Source: an uncultured Flavobacteriaceae bacterium (lineage in GTDB: Bacteria; Bacteroidota; Bacteroidia; Flavobacteriales; Flavobacteriaceae). Taken from it: a stretch of 64,000 nt of DNA. The notes beneath the pieces were generated by a model that was not told where the DNA came from, did not search any database, and saw only the letters and a program-made list of their open reading frames with translations. A program made the translations under genes and the position numbers. This document shows positions 47,170 to 49,095 of this stretch, one piece after another. Position 1 is the first letter of the stretch. Each line of letters opens with the position of its first letter. Location of the stretch: the NCBI GenBank assembly GCA_943789365.1, contig CALSTV010000001.1, forward strand, positions 682,001-746,000, given 5' to 3'.

Positions 47170-48085
47170 ATGGCACACACGAACAAAGCATTAAAATCGA
47201 ATTTACATCCTAGAAATAAGCATCGTGAACGCTATGACTTTAAACAGCTCATTGCAACAGTTCCGGCTTTAAAGCCATTTGTGCTTCAAAATCCTTATGG
47301 AGATTATACCATCGATTATTTCAATCCGAATGCGGTAAAAGCCTTGAACAAAGCTTTGTTGTTCCATGATTACGGATTGCAGGCATGGAAAATCCCTAAG
47401 GGTTTTTTATGTGCTCCGGTTCCAGGTCGTGTTGATTATATTCATTATATCGCCGATCTGCTTGGCGAAGCTCAGGAAGGAACAATTCCAACGGGTGCAA
47501 CCGTAAAATGCATCGATATTGGTGTGGGTGCCAACTGTATTTACCCAATTCTAGGAAATTCCTGTTACGGTTGGTCGTTTGTAGGTGTTGATATTGAGCA
47601 GACTTCTTTGGATGCGGCTAAGCAAATCCTAGCATCGAATCCGCTACTTCAAAAACATATTGAACTGCGTTTGCAGTCGAACCCAAAGGATGTATTTAGA
47701 GGTGCCATTCTGCCCGGTGAAAAATTTCAGTTGAGTCTGTGCAACCCTCCGTTTCATGCATCGGCCGCTGCAGCGGCTCGCGGCTACGAAACGGAAACTT
47801 AAAAACTTAAAATCAAAAGGTGCCGATCAATTGAATTTCGGTGGCCAGCACAATGAATTGTGGTGTGAAGGCGGTGAAATTGCCTTCCTTAAAAACATGA
47901 TACGCCAAAGCAAACACCATGCAAAGAATGTCGTTTGGTTTACCTCATTGGTGTCTAAAAAAGAAAATGTACGTCCTTTAAAAGTCTTGCTGAAAAAATT
48001 AGATGCCAAAGCAATCAAAGTTATGCCAATGGGCCAAGGCACTAAAGTGAGTAGAATTATAGCCTGGACCTTTCAAACGAATTAA
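47170..48085 (+). pseudogene. rlmF: 23S rRNA (adenine-1618-N6)-methyltransferase RlmF, frameshifted
   Basis: The first frame (47170-47802) carries the RlmF N-terminal region (LHPRNKHRERYDF), a SAM site (CIDIGVGANCIYPI) and the catalytic CNPPFHAS. It then runs into a stop after RGYETET. The second frame (to 48085) supplies TKRKLKNLKSKG, NFGGQHNELWCEGGE and WFTSLVSKKEN. Deleting one base near 47785 (GGCTACG to GGCACG) joins HASAAAAARG to TKRKL as in the family. The site is not a homopolymer. It may be a sequencing error or a true loss of this non-essential modification enzyme. Confidence 0.85.
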
Positions 48086-48089
48086 AACA

Positions 48090-48248
48090 CTATGTAAAGG
48101 AGTCTGTCTTTTTATCGTAATTATAAGGACAATGTTTGCAACCGCTTTTACAACAATAGCCTCTTCTTAAATGGTATTGTTCCGTAAACACGCGATATCC
48201 TTGTTCGTTCCAATAAAAATCGCCTTCTTCTAATTCTAATACCTGCAT
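48090..48248 (-). CDS. DUF5522-like small cysteine-rich protein
   Basis: This 52-residue minus-strand ORF from the ATG at 48248 (MQVLELEEGDFYWNEQGY) ends 5 bp from the rlmF stop. It has the pattern RRGYCCKSGCKHCPYNYD, with four cysteines and a histidine placed to bind a metal. This matches a small, widely conserved family of unknown function (DUF5522) as I remember it. Confidence 0.72.
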   Translation of the reverse strand: MQVLELEEGDFYWNEQGYRVFTEQYHLRRGYCCKSGCKHCPYNYDKKTDSFT

Positions 48249-48387
48249 ACTATGCTTGTTTTTGGTGCTACAAAAGTAAGGGTTCTTTTACGAAGCTATG
48301 AATTTTGTAAAAAAAATCTTTTTTTTTGCGTCTTTTTTGACTTTGTGGCGTCTTATGAGTAACTTTAACTATTAAATCATAGAAATT

Positions 48388-48489
48388 ATGAAAAATACAA
48401 ACTGCACATGCAACTGCGATGGTTGCAGAAACGGCCAATGTAGCAACTGTACTTGTGAATCTTGTACTTGCACAAATTGTACTTGTTAA
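48388..48489 (+). CDS. Metallothionein-like cysteine-rich peptide
   Basis: This 33-residue peptide has 11 cysteines, in repeated CxC and CxxC patterns (NCTCNCDGC, CSNCTCESCTC). It starts at an ATG 139 bp from the divergent DUF5522 gene and ends 59 bp before the sigZ-like gene on the same strand. The composition is that of a soft-metal (Cu, Zn, Cd) binding peptide. No homologue family is claimed. Confidence 0.6.
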   Translation: MKNTNCTCNCDGCRNGQCSNCTCESCTCTNCTC

Positions 48490-48548
48490 TTTAACTTTCT
48501 TACGCTGCAGTGCTTTGCGTTGCGGCGTAGGAATTATTTTTCTACCCT

Positions 48549-49095
48549 ATGGATACGGAAAAAATTTGGTCTGAATTTTCTACGGCCCTTAAAAAATTCA
48601 TCTTTAGCAAGGTTAAAAACGAAGCTGCGACCGAGGATATTCTTGCAAGACGTATTTGTAAAAATACACTTAAAGAAAGACAATTTAAAAGAAGAAGATC
48701 GCTTAAAGTCATGGCTATTCAGTATTGCCAACAATGCCACACTCGATTATTTCAGAAAAAACAAAACAGCCCCAGATCGCAATGAAGCTACTTCAAACGA
48801 GGGAGCAGCCGAACCGACTTCAACACATGATGCCGGCAGTTGCTTATTGCCTTTAATTCTTCGTCTGCCTAAAAAATACAAGGAGGCCTTATTGCTCACC
48901 GAGATAAAAGGGATAAAACAAGCCCAAGCCGCCGAACAATTAAAAATATCTTTAACCGCCGCAAAATCCAGAATTCAACGAGGGCGCGAATTGCTAAAAC
49001 AAGGCTTTATGGATTGCTGTAATTATACACTGGACGAAAACGGCCATCTAAAAGGCGAACACCAGGAAAAAGAAGATTGTAAGGTGTGCCGGTAA
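48549..49095 (+). pseudogene. SigZ-like ECF RNA polymerase sigma factor, frameshifted
   Basis: The true N-terminus MDTEKIWSEFSTALKKFIFS and KVKNEAATEDIL lie in one frame from 48549. The rest (QDVFVKIHL, WLFSIANNATLDYFR, the sigma-4 region ALLLTEIKGIKQAQAAEQL) lies in the frame one base later, ending at 49095. Removing one base near 48645 joins EDIL to QDVF, the usual region-2 sequence. The tail has clustered cysteines (FMDCCNYTL, EDCKVC), as in SigZ-type ECF factors. It lies 59 bp after the cysteine-rich peptide gene. Confidence 0.8.

Follow-up and report, generated by a model that had tools for sequence, protein, structure and literature searches.

A conserved cysteine-rich peptide encoded beside SigZ-like sigma factors in Flavobacteriaceae, a putative mini-metallothionein

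Positions 48388-48489 (forward strand) of the window, a 64,000-nucleotide stretch of DNA from an uncultured Flavobacteriaceae bacterium, encode a 33-residue peptide of which 11 residues are cysteine (MKNTNCTCNCDGCRNGQCSNCTCESCTCTNCTC). This peptide is real and conserved. Judged by its sequence, it looks like a metallothionein: it is very small, about a third cysteine, built of CxC and CxxC arrays and poor in aromatic residues. The SigZ-like ECF sigma factor encoded downstream is probably a CorE-like thiolate sensor dedicated to two targets, the mini-metallothionein and the sigma factor itself.

The peptide and the sigma factor gene in the window

The features around the peptide are as follows.

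47170-48085: rlmF (23S rRNA methyltransferase), two overlapping ORFs split near 47790 (profile match)
48090-48248, reverse strand: DUF5522 protein (Pfam match), a divergent neighbour judged to lie outside the unit
48327-48356, forward strand: ECF-type promoter with a -35-like TGCGTC (48327-48332), a 16-bp spacer and a -10-like CGTCTTAT (48349-48356)
48388-48489, forward strand: cysteine-rich peptide of class 1, 33 residues with 11 cysteines, the proposed mini-metallothionein (ORF, profile searches and codon analysis)
48497-48533, forward strand: stem-loop of 17 bp with a loop of 3 (-23.3 kcal/mol, z -6.7), followed by a T-rich stretch
48549-49095, forward strand: SigZ-like ECF sigma factor gene with a cysteine tail, open in relatives but broken by a frameshift near 48650 in the assembly

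An earlier note on this DNA had placed a 33-residue, 11-cysteine peptide in front of a SigZ-like gene, and both are present in the sequence as it said. The 59 bp it gave for the gap between them is the distance from the peptide stop codon to the sigma factor ATG, and the cysteine-rich tail it ascribed to the sigma factor contains CC...C..C. The note missed that the sigma gene consists of two overlapping frames near 48650. The frame is open in all 18 relatives aligned, and the frameshift in the window is perhaps an assembly error. The upstream rlmF is represented by two ORFs, which cover positions 1-194 and 192-293 of a single family profile; taken with the sigZ frameshift, this split hints at assembly indel errors or real pseudogenes. 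In the same genome, three of ten matches to the SigZ profile (L260, L262 and L264) contain internal stop codons, suggesting indels or pseudogenes.

The peptide is the sole ORF of 25-80 residues in the window with at least eight cysteines and at least 20% cysteine. A search against Pfam and NCBIfam, in which HMMER filters may hide very weak matches, returned no family at E ≤ 10. As a control, none of nine other ECF-like loci of the same genome carries a cysteine-rich ORF. The divergent neighbour is, as described earlier, a DUF5522-like protein with four cysteines (52 residues; Pfam DUF5522, E 2.7e-21). Its proposed membership in the cluster does not hold up: within flanks of 1.5-2 kb, DUF5522 is found near the peptide in only 7 of 65 loci, five of which belong to the genus.

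The sigma factor has an ECF fold with regions 2 and 4, matching Pfam Sigma70_r2 and Sigma70_r4_2. Foldseek retrieves chains of ECF sigma factors, SigH and SigW among them (best E 9.7e-8), and the AlphaFold model predicts an ECF fold with two short tail strands (mean pLDDT 84.8, pTM 0.46). The SigZ family (TIGR02959, NF007215) is the best sequence match, and an intact relative (L003) spans the full NF007215 profile. However, scores remain below both curated cut-offs, at 143.5 of 168.65 (TIGR02959) and 150.5 of 212 (NF007215) for the window frame and 168.1 of 168.65 and 184.8 of 212 for the intact relative, hence the name SigZ-like. We know of no established function for a SigZ-type sigma factor.

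Conservation of two peptide classes and their SigZ partners

Within the genus, the peptide occurs in five of six genomes, the source genome included, at E 6e-7 or better; the genome without it is 87% complete, and three further matches at E 2-4, which lie inside long frames, were left out of the count. A five-row profile applied at E ≤ 0.01 finds the peptide in 64 of 397 Flavobacteriaceae genomes and 46 of 237 genera, the source genome and its genus included, with one doubtful member among the 64 (G242), whose match spans 14 positions. Together with G004, these genomes supply 65 peptide loci. The earlier note had proposed looking for conservation of the peptide beside sigZ-like genes in relatives, and this is what is found: a SigZ-like ECF gene lies downstream on the same strand in 52 of the 65 loci, at a distance of 3-249 bp (median 72). 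A class-level search with the class-1 profile matches 4 of 345 genomes, all of them Flavobacteriaceae, and a plasmid search for the peptide gave no match. The unit is also carried by Tenacibaculum piscium, T. dicentrarchi and T. finnmarkense (L163, L175 and L225), which are fish-associated species.

All 52 sigZ-linked peptides share the spacing C.C.C..C....C..C.C..C.C..C.C with exactly 11 cysteines. A glycine is retained in 50 of them and a next-to-last asparagine in 47, while aromatic residues number at most five and histidines seven in the whole set. Among the 162 least diverged pairs, cysteine codons swap between TGT and TGC (pS 0.685) with zero cysteine replacement. Over the same pairs, dN/dS is 0.28 for all codons and 0.70 for non-cysteine codons, which are thus weakly constrained, a feature that would count against a metallothionein paired with SigZ. 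A chance reading frame could draw on the one comparable cysteine-rich ORF obtained in total from 60 first-order Markov windows. Its probability is negligible against occurrence in 46 genera, a complete lack of cysteine replacement in 52 linked copies and a single promoter.

Conservation extends to the sigma factor. The linker motif H-x4-C is present in all 52 linked SigZ frames, and the CC...CxxC tail in 51, the remaining frame being truncated; these frames were picked irrespective of their tails. In an 18-row alignment, H91, C96, C154, C155, C175 and C178 are invariant.

SigZ-like proteins also point to a second class of peptide. The SigZ profile matches 108 of 397 family genomes at E ≤ 1e-30, and these matches form two tiers, with 52 genomes at 181 bits or more and the rest at 170.4 bits or less. 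In the upper tier, 51 genomes have a class-1 peptide and the remaining one (G192) has a broken one. In the lower tier, a distinct cysteine-rich ORF lies directly upstream in 15 of 17 loci opened, and still lower-scoring loci have such an ORF in 3 of 20 opened; this reading covered part of the lower-tier sigZ genes. The SigZ tails of the 17 peptide-less low-scoring loci and of L122 do not end in CxxC. One class-2 SigZ (L115) has a CxxC tail and lacks a peptide, which is counted against the best explanation.

Class-2 peptides have 14 invariant cysteines in about 37 residues (20 sequences). Their profile matches 24 of 397 family genomes, with zero overlap with the class-1 genomes, and by coordinates 22 of the 24 peptides lie directly before a lower-tier SigZ. 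The other two, in G363 and G227, stand alone. Among the loci viewed, SigZ is absent downstream of stand-alone class-2 peptides at L254 and L255. The 21 class-2 SigZ proteins, L115 included, form one clade with support 1.0. At class level, the class-2 profile matches 3 of 345 genomes, none of them Flavobacteriaceae: G713 (L256) has the full unit, in G454 (L257) the peptide is near a contig end and a long ORF was not seen after it, and the match in G635 (L258) departs from the strict cysteine spacing.

The two classes differ in the sigma factor linker. Class-1 SigZ proteins have histidine at position 91 in 65 of 66 scored and aspartate or glutamate at position 95, whereas class-2 proteins have cysteine at position 95 in 21 of 21 and mostly tyrosine at position 91. 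C96 is invariant in all 87 aligned SigZ proteins of both classes; since these were selected by their tail cysteines, the independent evidence in that set is confined to C96 and the linker. This exchange of histidine for cysteine tracks the peptide class, as expected of a metal site.

Peptides without SigZ account for 13 of the 65 class-1 loci and are counted against the best explanation. Nine of them retain the class-1 spacing and four do not. Their existence means that SigZ is not the sole possible controller. Peptide relatives lacking both SigZ and promoter (L041, L042, L051-L053, L057, L058, L061, L062, L064 and L068) sit mostly in genomes of 1.3-2.7 Mb.

A shared promoter and an intergenic stem-loop

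When a site was sought up to 150 bases upstream of the peptide, a looser ECF-type promoter pattern was found before 51 of 52 linked peptides versus 0 of 13 unlinked ones. The class-1 site TGCATCTTT, whose first hexamer and CGTC-type box are 16 bases apart, precedes 46 of the 52 linked peptides and none of the 13 unlinked ones. In class 2, the promoter has a TGTATC form in 15 of 19 loci, and the other four differ in the first base. SigZ would be the factor that reads this promoter, and the transcript would start just 3' of the CGTCTATTA box.

The exact pattern has one match in the source genome. A scan of 54 of the 65 peptide genomes with the exact class-1 pattern gives 39 sites in 36 genomes, 36 of the 39 before a peptide, and a reversed control pattern gives zero sites in the same 54. 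With up to two mismatches, 50 of these genomes hold 204 sites, their own peptide promoters included, versus 177 for the reversed control, which makes weaker targets indistinguishable from background. A wider regulon was considered and rejected: each of the ten off-target sites opened among the matches listed (L100-L102 and L103-L109) lies antisense within a long coding frame. Five of the ten fall in the same gene, which we take to be radical-SAM-like.

A 38-base promoter pattern run over 84,980 species genomes (one per species) returns 103 stretches. Among 80 examined, 78 have a peptide immediately after the site, one of these cut by the locus end, and the other two stop 64 and 20 bases past the site, too early to judge. 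These 78 peptides comprise 71 of class 1 with 11 cysteines, two of class 1 with 12, four of class 2 with 14 and the cut one. A sigma factor ORF with a CC...CxxC tail comes next in all 69 stretches with more than 900 bases of room. Because the pattern was derived from such loci, the test lies in the fact that nothing else is found. Our interpretation is that SigZ regulates itself and that its regulon amounts to essentially a single operon. Four SigZ-like ECF genes without a peptide (L128, L130, L134 and L139) have a similar TGCGTC...CGTC site upstream. The spacer at L128 is 15 rather than 16 bases, and its host genome (G125) also has a class-1 unit, indicating that two related specificities may coexist.

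The region between peptide and sigZ was long enough to fold in 50 of the 52 linked loci, with 40 shuffles each. A stem-loop with z below -2 is predicted in 48 of the 50 (mean -21.8 kcal/mol), and a run of four or more T follows on its 3' side in 18 of 50. It may act as a partial terminator or stabiliser, leaving more peptide mRNA than sigZ mRNA. The order of a short cysteine-rich ORF, a stable stem-loop and a regulator gene is also that of a cysteine-codon leader, in which ribosome stalling during a shortage of Cys-tRNA would decide termination at the stem-loop before sigZ; polycysteine attenuators in mycobacteria provide a parallel. Such a leader is very improbable here. The 5' arm of the stem forms a weaker duplex with its own ORF than with the ORFs of other loci (-6.8 versus -7.6 kcal/mol), so no antiterminator is seen, and these duplex energies with swapped controls yield no alternative pairing between leader ORF and stem. 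Furthermore, the cysteines are spaced in a fixed pattern along the protein and do not form a run, and stand-alone peptides exist.

Proposed metal sensing and competing explanations

The earlier suggestion of a metal- or redox-sensing cluster survives in part. The pairing of peptide and sigZ and the metal or redox reading both draw support from the conservation, the shared promoter, the fixed cysteines of both proteins and the joint decay of the two genes, with DUF5522 dropping out. Across 80 stretches of 8 kb or less, sigZ is present in 73 and the next most frequent gene family in 46, kilobases away; neighbour families other than sigZ look like lineage synteny. That sigZ is the only constant neighbour is counted against the best explanation. 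In G192, two stops interrupt the sigZ frame and a frameshift disrupts the peptide ORF, with the promoter retained. In G092, the peptide keeps 8 of 11 cysteines, the promoter is degraded and a sigZ match is absent from the stretch; the gene that follows the peptide is presumably Lrp-like. This joint decay suggests that the peptide depends on SigZ in both lineages. A small cysteine peptide of another kind, ending in DDGCCGGGGCC, lies about 160 bp before a different ECF gene with a CC tail at L145.

Near one-to-one pairing, the match between peptide classes and sigma factor clades, and joint decay would equally suit a peptide that regulates SigZ, either as a soluble anti-sigma factor or as a metal donor or acceptor binding the SigZ tail directly. 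This is improbable, given that SigZ-less peptides make up 13 of 65 class-1 loci and 2 of 24 class-2 loci, which indicates that the peptide can be useful alone, and that it offers few hydrophobic residues to a partner.

An unlikely but less easily dismissed explanation is thiol or electrophile stress. The SigZ cysteines, with or without bound zinc, would react to disulfide stress, quinones or other electrophiles, and the peptide would buffer redox changes or be consumed as a sacrificial thiol. SigZ-like genes occur on 124 PLSDB plasmid records, 67 from Citrobacter and 69 predicted to be conjugative. On an Arenibacter plasmid, the gene adjoins a thioredoxin-family gene, a permease and an oxidoreductase, and one Vibrio plasmid copy lies near a glutathione S-transferase and a flavin oxidoreductase; these redox neighbours keep the thiol-stress explanation alive. 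Near the peptide itself, neighbours in some lineages also favour it, with genes we take to be OsmC-like near 22 of 80 loci and a presumed YpdA-like flavoprotein near 14 of 80. However, the five plasmid relatives opened of the 124 records (Priestia, two Vibrio, Rhodococcus and Arenibacter) lack a cysteine-rich ORF within 300 bp upstream, which also sets the unit apart from them, and the fixed 11- and 14-cysteine spacing and the linker exchange of histidine for cysteine better match metal coordination.

For metal sensing, the closest model is CorE of Myxococcus xanthus (former ECF44, now ECF238). CorE is reported to have a cysteine-rich extension and a linker CXC, both essential, and CorE2 to respond to Cd and Zn (PMC8999054; PMC3107203). 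SigZ likewise has a cysteine-bearing C-terminal extension and a linker cysteine ligand. The differences are that the SigZ linker has H-x4-C (class 1) or CC (class 2) in place of CXC, that its tail is short with four cysteines, and that its proposed target is a metallothionein-like peptide, whereas the reported CorE targets comprise a multicopper oxidase, a protein with a heavy-metal domain and P1B-type ATPases (PMC3107203).

The peptide resembles SmtA and MymT in being very small and cysteine-rich, and differs in being almost free of histidine and in its placement with a sigma factor. Its 11 thiols equal in number those of the (Zn/Cd)4S11 alpha domain of mammalian metallothionein, a domain of different origin whose cysteine spacing differs from that of the peptide. 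The human protein binds Zn4 or Cd4 through 11 thiolates of a single domain (PMC11796322). Among bacterial metallothioneins, SmtA is controlled by SmtB, the Pseudomonas operon is reported to lack a metal regulator (PMC7387436), and MymT is controlled by RicR (PMC10141476). Among the matches listed in the open-licence literature, none was a paper joining SigZ with a metallothionein.

Under the CorE-like explanation, SigZ would be activated by a thiophilic metal ion, with Zn or Cd the likeliest candidates ahead of Cu(I) or Hg. In the linker, the metal ligands would be C96 and either H91 (class 1) or C95 (class 2); C154, C155, C175 and C178 of the tail would supply the others, and SigZ would presumably need no anti-sigma factor. 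Active SigZ would transcribe the peptide gene and sigZ, with the stem-loop letting the peptide outnumber SigZ. The peptide would then fold its 11 (or 14) thiolates around about four metal ions, and the removal of metal would silence SigZ, giving a two-gene homeostat. Matched versions would exist: an 11-cysteine peptide with a sensor of one histidine and five cysteines, and a 14-cysteine peptide with a six-cysteine sensor. Tentatively, and as a weaker claim than CorE-like sensing, the unit may represent an undescribed two-gene metal homeostat, in which an ECF factor senses through cysteine and histidine, one operon is the whole regulon, a metal sponge replaces the anti-sigma factor by drawing the metal off the sigma factor, and two matched lineages exist.

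On this account, a SigZ-type sigma factor gains a concrete target and a testable signal, and the promoter is specific enough for a clean reporter. With the peptides, two metallothionein-like families of roughly 33 and 37 residues would join those known, neither of them recognised by the Pfam and NCBIfam searches. If the homeostat is real, one sensor and one sponge would form about the smallest metal-responsive control circuit imaginable.
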